33,599 bases of DNA from an uncultured Halobacteria archaeon (GTDB taxonomy: Archaea > Halobacteriota > Halobacteria > Halobacteriales > Haloferacaceae), in the NCBI GenBank assembly GCA_937142015.1, contig CAKZQY010000254.1, forward strand, positions 1 to 33,599, read 5' to 3'. The notes under the pieces are model-generated. The model saw only the letters and a list, made by a program, of their open reading frames with translations, did not search any database and had not been told where the DNA came from. The position numbers and the translations under genes were made by a program. The number at the start of each line of letters is the position of its first letter. Position 1 is the stretch's first letter. Below are positions 15,266 to 22,018 of this stretch, one piece after another.

Positions 15266-16348
15266 TCACTGTCGAGTCGCGTCGCGCGGTCGCCAGCCGC
15301 GGAGGAAGGCGACGGCGACACCGCCGACGGCGAGCGCGAACGGGAGCGCGGCCGCGCGGACGAGCACGACGGCCGCGGTCGCGGCGGCGGCTGGCACCGC
15401 GACGGCGGCGACCAACGCGCCGACGAGCAGGAGATCGTACGCCCCGATACTCCCGGGGACGGGCACGAGGCTGGCGATCTGTGGGAGCGGGACGACAGCC
15501 GCGAGCGGAACCAGCGGTGCGGCGGTCCCGGTGCCGACGAGTGCGACCCACAACGCTGCCGCGGTGAGTGTCTGCTCGGCGACGCCCGCGAGCGCGATTG
15601 CCGCGACCAGCCCGGGGCGGTCGCGGAACGACAGCGCACGCTCCCAGAACTGCGCGGTCGCACGACGGACTGCCGCCCGCTCCGGCGGCTCTCGACGGCG
15701 GAGCCGCGCGACGAGCCGAGCGAGCGGAGCCAGCACCGCGACGGCGACTGTCGAGAGCAGCGCCCGCGAGCGCACGGCGAGCACCGCGACGACCACGAGA
15801 CCGACGACCGCGAGGAGGAACGCACCGAGAACCGCGGCCACCGACGGCGTGGTGCTCACACTCCGTGCGGCTGTCGCCGTACTGCCGCCGTCGAGCACTG
15901 TCGGTGATCCACGACCCACGAGGACGGCAGCGCCGAACACGACCGACGCGAGCAGTTGCGCGCCGGACTTGACGTACTTGGCGACGGAGCGGACGCCGAG
16001 CGCCGACGCGTAGTCGGTCCCGGTCTCGACGGCGACGAACCGCGCGACGACAGGCTCCGATCCGACCGGTCCCGCGGGATTGACCGTGTCGAAGAAGTCT
16101 CCCGCCAGCGCGAACTTCACGCTCGCGCGTCCGGAGAGACCCGAGCCGAGCGGACGCACTGACGCCCAGACACCGAGGCCGTCGACGACCGCCTCCGCGG
16201 CGACGAGTGTCACGACCGCGAACACCGTCCACCACGTGACGGCGCTCGCGTGGTCGAGCACGGCGTCCGTGCCGCCGACTGTGACTGCGAGAGCCAGCGC
16301 GAGGAGGCCGACCGTGGCTCCGACAGCGAATCTGACTGCCCGATGCAC
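15266..16348 (-). CDS. Lysylphosphatidylglycerol synthase TM-domain (UPF0104) membrane protein
   Basis: The 360-residue polytopic membrane protein starts at GTG 16346-16348. It has about eight hydrophobic segments, with the family signature between TM3 and TM4 (FDTVNPAGPVGSEPVVARFV) and an Arg-rich cytosolic loop (LARLVARLRRREPPERAAVRR). This is the flippase-like half of MprF without the aminoacyl-transferase domain, so it probably handles a lipid or lipid-linked substrate rather than synthesising lysyl-lipid. The substrate in archaea is unknown. A T-rich patch near 16370-16380 on the minus strand is a plausible promoter. It is convergent with the PAC2 gene. Confidence 0.85.
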   Translation of the reverse strand: MHRAVRFAVGATVGLLALALAVTVGGTDAVLDHASAVTWWTVFAVVTLVAAEAVVDGLGVWASVRPLGSGLSGRASVKFALAGDFFDTVNPAGPVGSEPVVARFVAVETGTDYASALGVRSVAKYVKSGAQLLASVVFGAAVLVGRGSPTVLDGGSTATAARSVSTTPSVAAVLGAFLLAVVGLVVVAVLAVRSRALLSTVAVAVLAPLARLVARLRRREPPERAAVRRATAQFWERALSFRDRPGLVAAIALAGVAEQTLTAAALWVALVGTGTAAPLVPLAAVVPLPQIASLVPVPGSIGAYDLLLVGALVAAVAVPAAAATAAVVLVRAAALPFALAVGGVAVAFLRGWRPRDATRQ

Positions 16349-16620
16349 GGGTGGTGGTGCGGGGTTCGTGGTAGAAAAGGCGTCGGAGACGGCAGGGGCG
16401 AGTCACCACCGCATCGTACTGGCTCCAAGTTCGCACCCGCAAAAAGAATTAAGTACCTCGGGCCAAAATCAGACTTCCATCGTGAGTAGAGTGGAGCTAC
16501 GGAAAGGTTGCAGACAAAATTTGGTGAAACAACCCAACGCCGATATAACCACTCGGCACGTAGAGTTGACGCTTGAACGACCGATGTGGATAGGCCTGCG
16601 GGCTAGGTCCGTCGACACAC
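16349..16620. other. Intergenic region, AT-richer, upstream of the uL15 paralogue
   Basis: The 272 bp between divergent genes become clearly less GC-rich from about 16440 (AAAAAGAATTAAG at 16441-16453, CGATATAACC at 16541-16550). Either the ATATAA near 16543 (leader of about 50 nt) or GGATAGG near 16588 (leaderless) could be the promoter of the gene at 16621. I see no gene or RNA here. Confidence 0.5.
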
Positions 16621-17604
16621 ATGACCAATAAAAAAGATCGACAGCGGGGTAGTCGAACACACGGTGGCGGGAGCCACAAGCACAACCGTGGTGCCGGACA
16701 CAGAGGCGGACGTGGCGCAGCCGGACGCGACAAACACGAGTACCACAACCACCAACCACTCGGAAAGAGCGGATTCACACCACCGACCCGGGAAGAGACA
16801 GACGAGATCGAACTCAGAGAACTGTACGAGAGAGCGTACTACGCAGACAGCCCCGAACTCGCCGGTCACGGAGTGTTCCGCCTCACAGACGGTACCATAC
16901 TCGTCGACGCGCGGGTTGTCGCCGCGAACAATCCAGAGAAACGCGTCGAAACTCTGTATCAAAATAGGAAGCCAGTCGCCGCCGACGGTGGGACGGCGGT
17001 GAGGAATCCAACAAAGATCATGGGACCAACAGGGGGTGTGCAGCCGAGCGACATCGTCCGGTTCGTCGCAGACGACGCCACAGATCCAGTCGTGGACACG
17101 GTGGAAGCGAACGACGACGAGCTGATCGATCCAACGGAGCTACAACAGATGCCTGTAGAATTCGACCACAACGGGGACGGTGGCACCGAGCGGGAGCCAG
17201 ACGGCGACGGAGAGTCGTCGTCACGGGAGGCCACGACGAGCGACCGGCCACTGGTCGAACAAAGTCCCGATCCGGCGACGGTCACGCCGTCGGACCTCAC
17301 TCCGGAGGACGTGCCGGTGTTGTACGCCAAGTGGCGTGCAGGCGACGAAGAGCAACGCGAGCGAATCGAGTCACTGCTGGACGCCTACTTCGCCGACATG
17401 TACGAGCGTGGACGCGAAGAGACACTGTACGAACTCGGCGAGGAAACGATCACACCGCAAGAGGTCGCAGAGACGCTCAACGCTCTTCAGCGCGAGTGGG
17501 AGGAACACCTCGGTAAAGAGTACGACCCGATCGACGGCGGACTCGACAAGGAGAAGCGAGAGTACCTGCTCTCAGTCCGTCCAGCCATCGAGCAGCCCGC
17601 CTGA
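16621..17604 (+). CDS. Divergent paralogue of ribosomal protein uL15 (L15) with extra C-terminal domain
   Basis: The 327-residue protein starts at ATG 16621. Residues 1-52 are nearly those of haloarchaeal uL15: KKDRQRGSRTHGGGSHK, RGAGHRGGRG, GRDKHEYHNHQPLGKSGF, the basic tail that threads into 23S rRNA. Residues 60-170 keep a faded uL15 globular pattern (EIELREL, ILVDARVV, KIMGPTGGVQ, VRFVADDATDPVVDTVE). Then comes an acidic, Ser/Glu-rich linker (about 180-220) and a charged helical domain (about 225-320, ESLLDAYFADMYERGREETL, QEVAETLNALQREWEEHL) absent from normal uL15, which is about 165 residues. No other ribosomal gene is near. It could be an alternative ribosome component, an assembly competitor or a captured gene with a new job. 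Function is not established. Its 3' end overlaps the convergent gene by 33 bp. Confidence 0.85.
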   Translation: MTNKKDRQRGSRTHGGGSHKHNRGAGHRGGRGAAGRDKHEYHNHQPLGKSGFTPPTREETDEIELRELYERAYYADSPELAGHGVFRLTDGTILVDARVVAANNPEKRVETLYQNRKPVAADGGTAVRNPTKIMGPTGGVQPSDIVRFVADDATDPVVDTVEANDDELIDPTELQQMPVEFDHNGDGGTEREPDGDGESSSREATTSDRPLVEQSPDPATVTPSDLTPEDVPVLYAKWRAGDEEQRERIESLLDAYFADMYERGREETLYELGEETITPQEVAETLNALQREWEEHLGKEYDPIDGGLDKEKREYLLSVRPAIEQPA

Positions 17605-17943
17605 CTTGTCCACTCCATTGTACAGCGTACGGAGTCCGAGGTACCGATAGAGCTTGGTCACCTCCGCTTCGGTCGGGTCGTCGAGGTACCGTCTGAAGAA
17701 GTCGCGGATGGTGTGTACCTCCCTCTCGATCCTCCGTCCGGCAATGGTGCTCGCCTTCCGCTCCGGTAGATCCGTCGACGACGGGCGTGGATACGCCTCT
17801 GTGACCACATCCTCGATCCGTTCGTACTCTGCCTCGTACCGATCATCGAGTTCCTTGACATGACGAGGAAGTGGCCGGCCCCGCTCTTTTTCTACCTCGT
17901 CACTAGAGATCGGGTTCGCCTCTTCACAGTTGCTCCAGACCAT
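17572..17943 (-). CDS. Small acidic/basic helical protein, unknown
   Basis: The protein has 123 residues if it starts at ATG 17941-17943 (MVWSNCEEANPIS), chosen because a strong TATA box lies 28 bp upstream; the frame stays open 34 codons further but crosses that box. It is rich in charged residues and mostly helical (VEKERGRPLPRHVKELDD, IEREVHTIRDFFRRYL, TEAEVTKLYRYLG), with no membrane segment, signal or metal motif. I do not recognise a family. Its last 33 bp overlap the end of the uL15 paralogue in convergent orientation, so the two transcripts would be complementary at their 3' ends. Confidence 0.6.
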   Translation of the reverse strand: MVWSNCEEANPISSDEVEKERGRPLPRHVKELDDRYEAEYERIEDVVTEAYPRPSSTDLPERKASTIAGRRIEREVHTIRDFFRRYLDDPTEAEVTKLYRYLGLRTLYNGVDKSGGLLDGWTD

Positions 17944-17964
17944 CGTAGCAATCACATTTATCTC

Positions 17965-17976
17965 AAAATATAAATT
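17965..17976 (-). promoter_or_regulatory. TATA box of the small gene at 17943
   Basis: AATTTATATTTT on the minus strand is centred 28 bp upstream of ATG 17943, fitting a leaderless transcript. It sits in the most AT-rich stretch of this part of the window. Confidence 0.65.
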
Positions 17977-18041
17977 CTGCGGTTTGTTCTCGTTTTTCTG
18001 CGCGGTTGGAGACCGGGTTTGCCCCACTCGCCCTCTCCTAG

Positions 18042-18521
18042 TCACTCGTTCTCTGTGGTTTTCGTGTCTTCACTTGTGGTATCTCTCCTCTCGCGCGTGT
18101 CCTCATCTGGCGTGTCTTCCTCGGACGTGGTTTTTTGTTCCGAAGACTGGTCGTTATCTTCAGGAAGGTCGAGGTCACCGAGTTCACCGACGGGGATCTC
18201 GCCGACGAGAGACCGAGCCATCAGAAACGTCGTGAGCGCTACCATCACCGTTGTGAGAGTGAACATGACCGTCCCGAGGAGATTGACAGTTCGTACGTAG
18301 AATCCAGTCTGTGCAACGAGCAGTGCGACCAGCGCAACTAACGCAGGGATGAGGCTCCGATACAGCCATCTGATGTATCGTTCGAGGTCGTCGATCAACC
18401 GTCTCCGATTCGCTCTCGTCTCGGCGTTCAACTGTCCGAGTAAGAACGTGACGATCAGTGCGATAATCGAAATGACTGTAATCACCGACGACACTGACAC
18501 CACTGGCTCGGACCCGAGCAT
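18042..18521 (-). CDS. Small membrane protein with acidic Thr/Asp/Glu-rich tail, unknown
   Basis: The protein has 159 residues from ATG 18519-18521 (MLGSEPVVSVSSVI). An upstream TTG in the same frame lies too close to the TATA box to be used. There are three hydrophobic segments: about 8-28 (VITVISIIALIVTFLLGQL), about 50-75 (RSLIPALVALVALLVAQTGF) and about 80-105 (LLGTVMFTLTTVMVALTTFLM). A basic loop between the first two carries RANRRRLIDDLERYIRWLYR. The last 45 residues are a disordered acidic tail. I do not recognise a family. A TATA box near 18590 predicts a leader of about 40 nt. It lies between the uL15-paralogue locus and moeA and may belong to the same accessory patch. Confidence 0.7.
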   Translation of the reverse strand: MLGSEPVVSVSSVITVISIIALIVTFLLGQLNAETRANRRRLIDDLERYIRWLYRSLIPALVALVALLVAQTGFYVRTVNLLGTVMFTLTTVMVALTTFLMARSLVGEIPVGELGDLDLPEDNDQSSEQKTTSEEDTPDEDTRERRDTTSEDTKTTENE

Positions 18522-18584
18522 GGTGTCTGTGTGTTCTCGACTCGGCCGTATCGCTTCTTTCGAAGCAAACTGACACAAAATGCT

Positions 18585-18595
18585 AGTATATTATG
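18585..18595 (-). promoter_or_regulatory. TATA box of the small membrane protein gene
   Basis: The minus-strand sequence CATAATATACT predicts transcription start near 18562, about 41 nt before the ATG at 18521. Confidence 0.55.
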
Positions 18596-18665
18596 TTTTC
18601 GAGTTGGAAAACAAGCCAGAGACGAGGTTCCAGTAGTGTTCGATCATCCGTGTTGTCGACAGCGG

Positions 18666-20621
18666 TCAGTCGTATCCGGGGAGTTTCGAGAGGATGTCGG
18701 GGAGCCGTCGTCCCCCGGACACCTCGTCTGACTCACCTCGTTCACCGTCTGTCAACAGCGCCCGCAGCGACGTCACACCGGGTTTCGACAGCCGGTCGTC
18801 GGCAGCCCACACACGAACCCGCTCCGTTCCGAGCGAGACGAACCCCGTGTCGAGTCGCTCGGCAGTCACACGGAGTCCCAGTCCGACATCGGCGTCGCCG
18901 GCGAGCACGCGTCTGGCGGGCGACTCGTGGGCGCGAACCGCCCGCTCGAAGCCGTCGATCGCCTCCACGAGCGCCCGTCGTGTGGTGTCACGTTCCTCCG
19001 CGAGGTCGGCGACAGCGTTGCCGAGACTCGTCCGCAGCCCGGAGTTCGTGTCGCGGTTGACCAGCCGCAGGTCCCGGTCGACGAGGTCCCCGAGTCCAGT
19101 CACCCCTACCGGGTTCTCCGGAGGGACGATCAGCCCCCACTCGCGGGACCACCCGCCGATTTCGGTCCCAGCCGGCTCTCTGTCGACCGGGCCAGCGGTG
19201 ACGGCGATGTCCGGCACGCCGGCCCGGAGCTGTCTGAGGCCTCGCCGACTGCCGTCCGCGAGGTACCGGGGGTTGTCGATCAGGTCGAGCAGTCGTGACA
19301 GCGCCGGGTCGTCCTCGCCGATGCCGACGAGCCGTGGCGGGCGGACAGACGGGGAGAACAGCTGGACAGTCACCGACTCGCCAGCCGCGAGATACTCCGT
19401 GTCCGGGTGGACAGCGACCACGCCGTCCGCCTCCACGAGACTCGTCGTCGCTCCCGACCCTCTGTCGACGGGGTACACCAGCGTCTCCCCGTCGCCACCT
19501 TCGACGAGTCCAGCGGGCATGAGACGGCGACGCCCCTCGCTGTACCGTTCCTCGACAGCCATCTCGCCGTCGACAGTCGCCGTCGGCGGCTCCGGCTGTC
19601 CCGCGGCCTCGCGGATCGCGGGTGCGACGAACGTCCGGAAGATAGTGAGCGCCGAGACGGGGTAGCCCGGCAGCCCGACGTACGCCGAGTCGCCGATCCG
19701 TCCGATCAGCATCGGCTTCCCGGGCTTGACCGCGACGCCGTGGAGGAGGAGTTCCCCGCGATCCTCGATCACGCGGTAGATCACGTCCACCGCGCTCGCG
19801 GAGGTCGATCCCGAAGAGAGCACGAGGTCACACTCCTCGCTGGCGTCGATCAGCGTCCGCTCCATCTCGTCGTAGTCGTCGCCAGCGTGGGGGTACAACA
19901 CCGCCTCGCCGCCCGCCTCCTCGACACCAGCGGCGACCGTGTAGCTGTTTACGTCGTAGATCTCGCCGCGGGCGCTGTCGAGGTCCTCGCCCGGCCGGAC
20001 GAGTTCGTCACCCGTCGAGACGATCCCGACCGTCGGCCGACCGCGGACGGGCACCTGATCGACACCGAGCGCTGACAGCAGTCCGATCTCGCGGGGGGTG
20101 ATCGCCGTGCCGGGTCCGAGTCCCCGCGCGCCGGCTGCGATGTCCGCGCCCGCGAACATGACGTTGTCTCCCGGCGCGACTGCCGTGCGGAACGCGACGT
20201 GACTCGGGGCGTCTGCTCCGGAGTCTCCGGAGTTTCGGGAGCGTTCCTCGGTGTCTTCCACCATCACCACCGCGTCCGCGCCGTCGGGGACGACCGCACC
20301 GGTCGAGATCTCGACGCACGTGCCGGGCTCGACCGTCACCGACGGCTCCTCGCCGGCGTGGACAGTGCCGACGAGCGGGAGCGTCGTCGGGTCGGCCTCG
20401 CCGGCGTCGAAGGTGTCGCGCGCTCGGACAGCGTAGCCGTCGACAGACGCGCGGTCGAACCCCGGCACGTCCAGCTCCGCGTCCAGTCGGTCCGCGAGCA
20501 CCCGCCCACGTGCCTCGGCGAGCGGGATCGTCTCCGGGTCGGGGGCGAGATCCAGCGACGCGATTGCATCGTGTGCCTCCTCGGGGTCGGCGAGGTCGCG
20601 GAACTCCTTGCGGTCGCTCAC
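18666..20621 (-). CDS. moeA: Molybdopterin molybdenumtransferase MoeA with C-terminal periplasmic-binding-like domain
   Basis: The start is GTG 20619-20621 (VSDRKEFRDLADPEEA), which overlaps the TGA of the upstream moeA by the GTGA pattern and gives 651 residues. Residues 1-400 are MoeA: FDRASVDGYAVRARDTF, ISTGAVVPDGADAVVMVEDT, VGIVSTGDELV, LSSGSTSASAVDVIYRVIED, GVAVKPGKPMLIG, GLPGYPVSALTIF. The enzyme inserts molybdate (or tungstate) into adenylated molybdopterin. Residues about 430-640 form a substrate-binding-like domain (VNRDTNSGLRTSLGNAVADL, ADVGLGLRVTAERLDTGFVSLG), as in archaeal MoeA-PBP fusions, perhaps for oxyanion or cofactor sensing. It is co-transcribed with the moeA above it. Cytoplasmic. 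Confidence 0.92.
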   Translation of the reverse strand: MSDRKEFRDLADPEEAHDAIASLDLAPDPETIPLAEARGRVLADRLDAELDVPGFDRASVDGYAVRARDTFDAGEADPTTLPLVGTVHAGEEPSVTVEPGTCVEISTGAVVPDGADAVVMVEDTEERSRNSGDSGADAPSHVAFRTAVAPGDNVMFAGADIAAGARGLGPGTAITPREIGLLSALGVDQVPVRGRPTVGIVSTGDELVRPGEDLDSARGEIYDVNSYTVAAGVEEAGGEAVLYPHAGDDYDEMERTLIDASEECDLVLSSGSTSASAVDVIYRVIEDRGELLLHGVAVKPGKPMLIGRIGDSAYVGLPGYPVSALTIFRTFVAPAIREAAGQPEPPTATVDGEMAVEERYSEGRRRLMPAGLVEGGDGETLVYPVDRGSGATTSLVEADGVVAVHPDTEYLAAGESVTVQLFSPSVRPPRLVGIGEDDPALSRLLDLIDNPRYLADGSRRGLRQLRAGVPDIAVTAGPVDREPAGTEIGGWSREWGLIVPPENPVGVTGLGDLVDRDLRLVNRDTNSGLRTSLGNAVADLAEERDTTRRALVEAIDGFERAVRAHESPARRVLAGDADVGLGLRVTAERLDTGFVSLGTERVRVWAADDRLSKPGVTSLRALLTDGERGESDEVSGGRRLPDILSKLPGYD

Positions 20622-22018
20622 GACGACCCCTCCCACAGTTCCACCGAGACAGTCTCGCCCGCGTCGATCCCCTCCCGCGGCTCGGGGACGACGACCCAGC
20701 CGTCCGAGAGCGCGACGGAGGAGAGTACCCCTGCGCCCGAGGCGCGTGTCGGCGCTGCTGTCGGGAGCCCGCTGCTGCCCGAAGCGCCGGTTGTCCCGGC
20801 GTCGCCGCTCGCGGCCTCTCCCCTCCCGGCGCTCGTGGCCTCTCTCCTCCCGGCGCTCGTGGCCTCACTCCTCCCGGCGCTCGTGGCCTCACCCCTCTCG
20901 GTGTCGTCGCCGCTCGTGGCGTCGCCCGTCTCCGAACTGCGGTCGAGTCGCACGCGGACGAACGTGCGTTCCCCGGGTTCGGAGGCGACCTTGCGGGCGA
21001 GTGTCGCCCGCTCCGTCGGGAGGGGAGCCGACGGGAGTCCGCCGGCACGTCGCGTCGCAGAGCGGAGGAACTGGACGGCGTTGACCAGACACGCAACCGG
21101 GTACCCCGGCAGCATCAGGACGGGTGTGTCTCCCGCAGTGCCGAGTGCGACCGGGTGGCCGGGCTTGAGCGCGACGCCGTGGACGAACACCTCGCCCAAC
21201 TCCGAGACGACCTCGGGGACGAGGTCGCGTTCTCCGACGGAGGAACCCCCGGTCGTGACGACGATGTCGTGGTCCGTGTCTCGCTGGATCGCCTCGCGGA
21301 GCGCGTCCGGGTCGTCGGTCACGATGTCGCGGTACGTCGCGTCCCCACCCCACCGCTCGACGAGCCGCGACACGGTGAGCCCGTTCGTCTCGATTATCTC
21401 TCCCGGGTCGGGATCGGACTCGACGAGCTCCTCGCCGGTCGGGATCACCGACACGGTCGGGGGCTCGCGCACCTCGACGCTGTCGACGCCGACGGACTGG
21501 AGCAGTCCCAGATCCGATGGACGCAGACGGTGGCCGGCGTCGTAGAGGTGTTGCCCCTGGTTCACGTCTTCGCCGCGGTCGCCGACGTTCTCTCCCTCCG
21601 CGACGGCGTCGTCGATCTCGATCTCGGTGCCGACGCGCTCGGTGCGTTCGATTTTCACCACCGCGTTCGCGCCCGACGGCAGTTCACTCCCCGTGTGGAC
21701 ACGGACCGCCTCCTGTGGGCCGACTGGGGGACGAGTGTCGTCGTCCTCGGTCTCGACGGCCCGCAGCACCGCCGGTGAGCGGTCGGACGCTCCGAACGTG
21801 TCTCGTGCGCGGACGGCCCAGCCGTCCATCGCGGCCCGGTCGTAGCCGGGGACTGCCCGCGGCGCGGTGACTGTCGAAGCGAGCACTCGCCCGTCTGCCT
21901 CGGTCAGGGGGAGTCGTTCCGTCCGGCCGTGTGGCACGACGCGTTCGAGGAGTCGCTCGCGCGCCTCCGCGACCCGGGTTCGGTCTTTGAACCCGGACTC
22001 TGTCCTGTCGTGGGTCAT
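20618..22018 (-). CDS. moeA: Molybdopterin molybdenumtransferase MoeA, single-domain form
   Basis: The 466-residue protein starts at ATG 22016-22018. Motifs: GYDRAAMDGWAVRARDTFGA, HTGSELPSGANAVVKIERTE, VSVIPTGEELVESDP, VVTTGGSSVGERDLVPEVV, GVALKPGHPVALG, LMLPGYPVACLVNA. It is longer than standard MoeA (about 400) because domain IV contains an insertion of about 60 residues rich in Ala/Ser/Gly/Thr, including three 8-residue repeats (EATSAGRG type). It overlaps the second moeA by 4 bp. Two MoeA proteins are common in archaea, possibly for molybdenum versus tungsten; which does which cannot be read here. Confidence 0.93.
   Translation of the reverse strand: MTHDRTESGFKDRTRVAEARERLLERVVPHGRTERLPLTEADGRVLASTVTAPRAVPGYDRAAMDGWAVRARDTFGASDRSPAVLRAVETEDDDTRPPVGPQEAVRVHTGSELPSGANAVVKIERTERVGTEIEIDDAVAEGENVGDRGEDVNQGQHLYDAGHRLRPSDLGLLQSVGVDSVEVREPPTVSVIPTGEELVESDPDPGEIIETNGLTVSRLVERWGGDATYRDIVTDDPDALREAIQRDTDHDIVVTTGGSSVGERDLVPEVVSELGEVFVHGVALKPGHPVALGTAGDTPVLMLPGYPVACLVNAVQFLRSATRRAGGLPSAPLPTERATLARKVASEPGERTFVRVRLDRSSETGDATSGDDTERGEATSAGRSEATSAGRREATSAGRGEAASGDAGTTGASGSSGLPTAAPTRASGAGVLSSVALSDGWVVVPEPREGIDAGETVSVELWEGSS
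20823..20894 (-). repeat. In-frame 24-bp tandem repeat in moeA domain IV
   Basis: Units begin at 20823, 20847 and 20871 (plus-strand core CTCCCGGCGCTCGTGGCCTC). They encode three copies of an 8-residue unit around EATSAGR in a loop not needed by the fold. Confidence 0.95.

Follow-up and report, generated by a model that had tools for sequence, protein, structure and literature searches.

A second uL15 gene with an added helical domain in an acquired three-gene island of a haloarchaeon suggests a ribosome-docking cassette

The gene at positions 16621..17604 (plus strand) of the window, by which we mean the whole stretch of 33,599 nucleotides analysed from an uncultured Halobacteria archaeon, encodes a paralogue of ribosomal protein uL15 of 327 aa with an ATG start. 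Beyond what had been described in an earlier note on this DNA, the paralogue is one of three genes of an acquired insertion, the other two of which, here called S and T, converge on it. Another archaeon (genome G078) has a similar insert within a mobile element, which suggests an undescribed ribosome-docking system. We tentatively propose, at slightly less than even confidence, that T, S and the uL15 paralogue form a mobile cassette with a conflict or accessory role, the paralogue being the ribosome-docking part and T the conflict output.

The ordinary rpl15 gene, for which a search had been recommended, was found in the same genome on another contig (C212; L001 1309-1788). It encodes a protein of 159 aa, lies directly 3' of rpl30 and rps5 and is the one canonical copy in the genome; the paralogue is therefore not the sole uL15. 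The place after uL30 in the ribosomal (spc) operon is thus taken by the canonical gene and not by the paralogue, which lies between the LPG_synthase_TM and moeA genes and hence outside a ribosomal operon, as was originally stated. Canonical haloarchaeal uL15 proteins, 153-166 aa in length, carry no C-terminal extension, so the extension is not a common property of the haloarchaeal subunit. The canonical gene elsewhere and the unextended canonical proteins together rule out the reading as an ordinary subunit, and the paralogue is real. The gene 3' of canonical rpl15 (L001:1788-3170) is unrelated and stands in place of the usual secY.

The basic tail of the paralogue (residues 1-53, 16621..16779, plus strand, net charge +9) is its conserved part. 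Residues 1-52 are identical to the canonical uL15 of the same genome at 47 of 52 positions, in agreement with the earlier observation that they are nearly those of haloarchaeal uL15. Although just five of these residues differ, the nucleotide identity is only 75%. The tail retains each of the 37 positions at which ten canonical haloarchaeal uL15 proteins do not vary, whereas the globular part retains 8 of 23 such positions. When the tail was compared with four canonical genes of the genus, 20 private codon changes were synonymous and 3 non-synonymous, a count which presupposes a canonical donor close to the genus; about 24% would be synonymous if changes were random (roughly 1:3 under neutrality; binomial p 5.5e-10). 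The GC3 of the tail is 0.56 versus 0.71-0.90 in the canonical genes. Because all 37 invariant positions were kept while the synonymous sites diverged, the similarity is not due to chance, and the gene is a second uL15 gene. The nucleotide identity, the codon changes and the low GC3 indicate that the tail is under purifying selection and is not freshly copied; the globular body is relaxed and free to change. This is what had been supposed from the sequence, namely that selection kept the rRNA-contacting part and remodelled the rest. The nucleotide identities (75% here and 66% for the G078 copy) and the differing GC3 rule out that the tail arose by recent recombination or gene conversion. The uL15 tail reaches into 23S rRNA, as established from the Haloarcula 50S structure, and the residue-level conservation fits an authentic 23S binding site.

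The globular part (approximately residues 54-166, 16780..17118, plus strand) has drifted strongly, as claimed before, and no match to Pfam PF00828 (L15/L18e) was found in the 327-aa protein. Its homology is still detectable (z 5.3 against the canonical uL15 of the same genome). Haloarcula uL15 was the PDB match to the paralogue (E ~2e-28), over query residues 1-102 only. About 160 residues follow the uL15 body. They consist of an acidic, low-complexity linker (approximately residues 167-225, 17119..17295, plus strand; pLDDT <50 up to residue 212) and a helical C-terminal domain (approximately residues 226-327, 17296..17604, plus strand), for which AlphaFold predicted helices at residues 230-240, 243-274, 279-297 and 310-318. 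In models of the two paralogues that were built on shallow alignments and were poor overall (mean pLDDT 50 and 53), both extensions were predicted to be helical, with pLDDT 88-93 at residues 221-260 of the 327-aa protein and about 73-84 at residues 211-330 of the G078 protein. The acidic linker and helical domain proposed earlier were thus recovered, and a stretch near residues 230-260 is predicted as helical with confidence. A fold search of both models against the PDB gave nothing at E <1e-3.

The paralogue belongs to a three-gene island of 2.3 kb (16349..18665) with a GC content of about 56-60% compared to about 66-70% around it. The chromosomal gene on its left encodes a protein of the LPG_synthase_TM family (15266..16348, minus strand; Pfam PF03706). 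On its right lies the chromosomal gene of a MoeA-type protein (18666..20636, minus strand), which is homologous to the adjacent MoeA encoded by a second moeA and has orthologues in all congeners. These flanking genes are adjacent in congeners. In two genomes of the same genus the island is absent and they lie 113 bp (G001) and 73 bp (G002) apart; since they nearly abut there, the 2.3 kb represent an insertion. No target-site duplication was found at the island. Elsewhere the window carries ordinary chromosomal genes, namely two-component genes, a carboxylase, a pyruvate dehydrogenase-type complex, moeA, NRAMP and glutamyl-tRNA synthetase, and neither an integrase nor a defence gene was found near the island.

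Both partner genes are located on the minus strand in the order T, then S, and could form one operon. T (18042..18521), which starts with ATG at 18521 or alternatively with TTG at 18578, encodes a membrane protein with about three predicted TM helices and an acidic C-terminal tail; its hydropathy and the order of its hydrophobic segments resemble those of the G078 T protein. S (17572..17943) encodes a small acidic protein of 123 aa. Its start is most likely at 17943 (MVW), while a longer form from GTG at 18045 is possible. A TATA-like box read from the sequence at 17965..17974 (minus strand), 22-31 bp upstream of the S start, is placed as would be expected for a leaderless haloarchaeal gene. 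S and the paralogue are convergent and their 3' ends overlap by 33 bp. The two S proteins, which share the MVW start, are 29% identical (z 3.1-4.2, p 0.002-0.008). For the T proteins z was 2.8 (p 0.02), and for control pairs of unrelated proteins it ranged from -0.4 to 0.4. Taken alone, these similarities of S and T are weak.

Searches with both the full protein and the tail alone identified G078, a genome of the same family, as the sole other one with a second uL15-tail gene. Its paralogue has 366 aa with a C-terminal extension of about 170 aa, keeps 36 of the 37 invariant positions in the tail and 15 of 23 in the body, and scores 21.1 bits against a PF00828 cut-off of 21.5. The nucleotide identity of its tail to rpl15 of the window host is about 66% and its GC3 is 0.35; purifying selection thus holds the amino acids of the tail in both diverged copies. 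The neighbours are a membrane protein and then an acidic 135-aa protein starting with MVW, convergent on the paralogue. A survey of the neighbours of homologues, suggested at the outset, showed the order T, S, convergent uL15 to be repeated. The S proteins are acidic in both cassettes (net charge -7 and -13), and the similarity between the extensions of the two paralogues is not significant (z 0.6-2.4). The element that carries the G078 cassette is integrative, of the conjugation type and low in GC; it encodes VirB4/HerA-like and TraG/TrwB-like ATPases, a tyrosine integrase and RadC. The cassette is adjoined by a DUF4209-like protein (L066:10933-12510) matching the PADLOC candidate PDC-S39 (5e-23). 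Both loci are horizontally acquired. Residues 264-337 of the G078 paralogue (L066:9448-9810) resemble the helical part of haloarchaeal aldehyde:ferredoxin oxidoreductase (AOR), with about 35% identity over 74 aa. This resemblance is reproducible, though weak: comparison with a single AOR gave z 10, and a profile of three sequences scored 15 bits. The segment has no Pfam match and is not clearly common to the window paralogue. Domains of the cassettes may have been captured from host enzymes.

From the conservation of the tail we infer with fair confidence that the uL15 site of the large subunit is where the paralogue docks. The tail would fill its normal 23S rRNA site, and the paralogue would therefore enter a fraction of the 50S subunits, replacing or competing with canonical uL15, and would display the helical domain at the 50S surface. 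S would bind the helical domain or the tail. T would be the output, inactive until the ribosome state or 50S assembly is disturbed, for example by infection with a ribosome-targeting virus, and would then harm the cell, as in an abortive-infection-like conflict device. The binding of S and the output through T are the least certain steps of this mechanism. It is with low confidence that we suppose S and T to work with the paralogue, T to be the membrane output and the whole to act in conflict, possibly in abortive infection, and the effector role is a guess. The cassette reading is supported by the recurrence of T, S and the convergent uL15 paralogue in two diverged copies. Against it stand the finding of just two cassettes, the weak similarity of the S and T pairs and of the two extensions, the negative search of the three window proteins against known defence families, the ordinary neighbours of the window island and the fact that a convergent layout is no proof of co-regulation of S and uL15. 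Its setting in the cassette makes a docked adaptor or conflict component the preferred view of the paralogue, ahead of a plain specialised ribosome. A bolder version, which we consider doubtful, is that of a new class of mobile conflict systems in which the uL15 paralogue is a ribosome-docked sensor or bait, with its tail in the 50S subunit and with S linking its variable body and helical domain to an effector in the membrane. Further cassettes may likewise have recruited other ribosomal proteins.

The kept tail, the remodelled body, the acidity of S (-7 and -13) and the mobile, sporadic nature of the cassette would also suit a toxin-antitoxin-like pair, with the paralogue as a dominant-negative uL15 that occupies the tail site while the 50S subunit assembles and so blocks its maturation, S as an acidic antitoxin masking the tail or the new domain, and T as an accessory. 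Since S converges on the paralogue at each locus and does not form an antitoxin-toxin operon with it, and since T is left unexplained, we regard such a pair as rather unlikely. Some ribosomal proteins have extraribosomal roles, and the tail could likewise have been reused as an RNA-binding module off the ribosome, with another function for the new domain. A general RNA binder, however, need not keep 37 of 37 rRNA-site residues of canonical uL15; the authentic 23S site is favoured for this reason, and the chance of an off-ribosome module seems quite small.

A non-functional chimera or a decaying rpl15 duplicate, without a selected function, would be in keeping with the presence of the gene in one genome of its genus, but the 327-codon frame is intact, the private changes stand at 20:3 instead of the approximately 1:3 of neutrality, and a second cassette has the same architecture, so that this origin is very improbable. 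Finally, the paralogue could be an accessory or specialised ribosomal protein on a mobile element, which would be built into the 50S subunit and would give the element or the host an advantage by altering translation, ribosome location (via T) or resistance to a compound that targets ribosomes. Its tail is conserved like that of a real subunit, its globular part is still recognisable as uL15 (z 5-6), and another ribosomal protein, L21e, is carried by archaeal viruses (PMC8651126). We nevertheless rate this reading as rather unlikely, because the body is strongly diverged, 160-180 residues are added and S and T require a role; together with the toxin-antitoxin-like pair it is the chief rival to the proposed mechanism.

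With canonical uL15 (PF00828, haloarchaeal rpl15) the paralogue shares an essentially identical tail and a detectably homologous globular part. It differs in its non-operon position in an acquired island, in a body below Pfam detection, in the linker and helical domain and in the partner genes. The abortive-infection and toxin-antitoxin modules with membrane effectors are similar in being small, sporadic, mobile sets which combine a membrane protein with a small acidic partner, and the G078 cassette lies beside a candidate defence gene. Unlike them, the three proteins contain no recognised toxin, antitoxin or defence domain, and we know of no ribosomal protein that is a component of such modules. 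The nearest kind is a ribosomal protein on mobile DNA. Virus-encoded bS21 and bL12 can enter host ribosomes (PMC6375957; L15 is not mentioned in its main text), and phage proteins target ribosomes as soon as infection begins (PMC10914614). The virus-encoded ribosomal proteins resemble our case in the location of the gene on horizontally moving DNA, in purifying selection (here on the tail only) and in possible incorporation into the host ribosome, but here a core protein has gained a new domain and resides in a three-gene cassette of an integrative element or chromosomal island. No relative was found in phages or IMG/VR, and the G078 copy lies in an element with an integrase and conjugation ATPases. 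What is new is the added domain together with the partner genes, and the cassette is possibly categorically new if it proves to be a system. A core ribosomal protein copied to mobile DNA, with its tail under selection and the rest rebuilt, would offer a ready means of equipping ribosomes with new functions. The conflict reading, if true, would make the ribosome itself a monitored asset in archaeal immunity, and under the accessory reading nature would have engineered a large subunit.

The cassette was found at two loci in about 520 haloarchaeal genomes. No third tail gene was found in three families (f1, 171 genomes; f7, 125; f4, 146) and in selected genomes of others, by tail pattern scans, which would miss relatives that have diverged strongly. 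Searches of phages, plasmids and IMG/VR gave no further such locus, and 392 genomes of the class, 84,980 species contigs, IMG/VR viral contigs and phages contained no relatives of the C-terminal domain. A match to the C-terminal part in G150 falls in the acidic linker, and one on an Acinetobacter plasmid (E 9e-3) was put down to chance resemblance between helical sequences. When 372 genomes were searched with a profile built from both S proteins, nothing appeared beyond two weak matches (in G332 and G142), both to unrelated proteins. None of the six cassette proteins of the window and G078 matched a PADLOC model. The earlier statement that no uL15 variant of this form had been described holds for the open literature, to which the search was largely confined. 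Where a genome had two tail matches, both belonged, in those checked, to one canonical gene, the second lying in its globular part, and a second match in G422 was an ORF without the tail pattern and was taken as spurious. The plasmid-borne uL15 of Natronorubrum bangense (H1) is an ordinary gene in a ribosomal operon; the ribosomal-protein genes L22 to L15 and secY lie there on an 828-kb plasmid (L034, NZ_CP031306.1 252003-268242). Since uL15 tail matches with the same score lie on two contigs of this genome (G457), its ribosomal operon may be duplicated. Equal-score tail matches also occur in G496, at C1:22201 and C1:3319611, far apart on one contig, and perhaps represent a duplicated operon or an assembly overlap.
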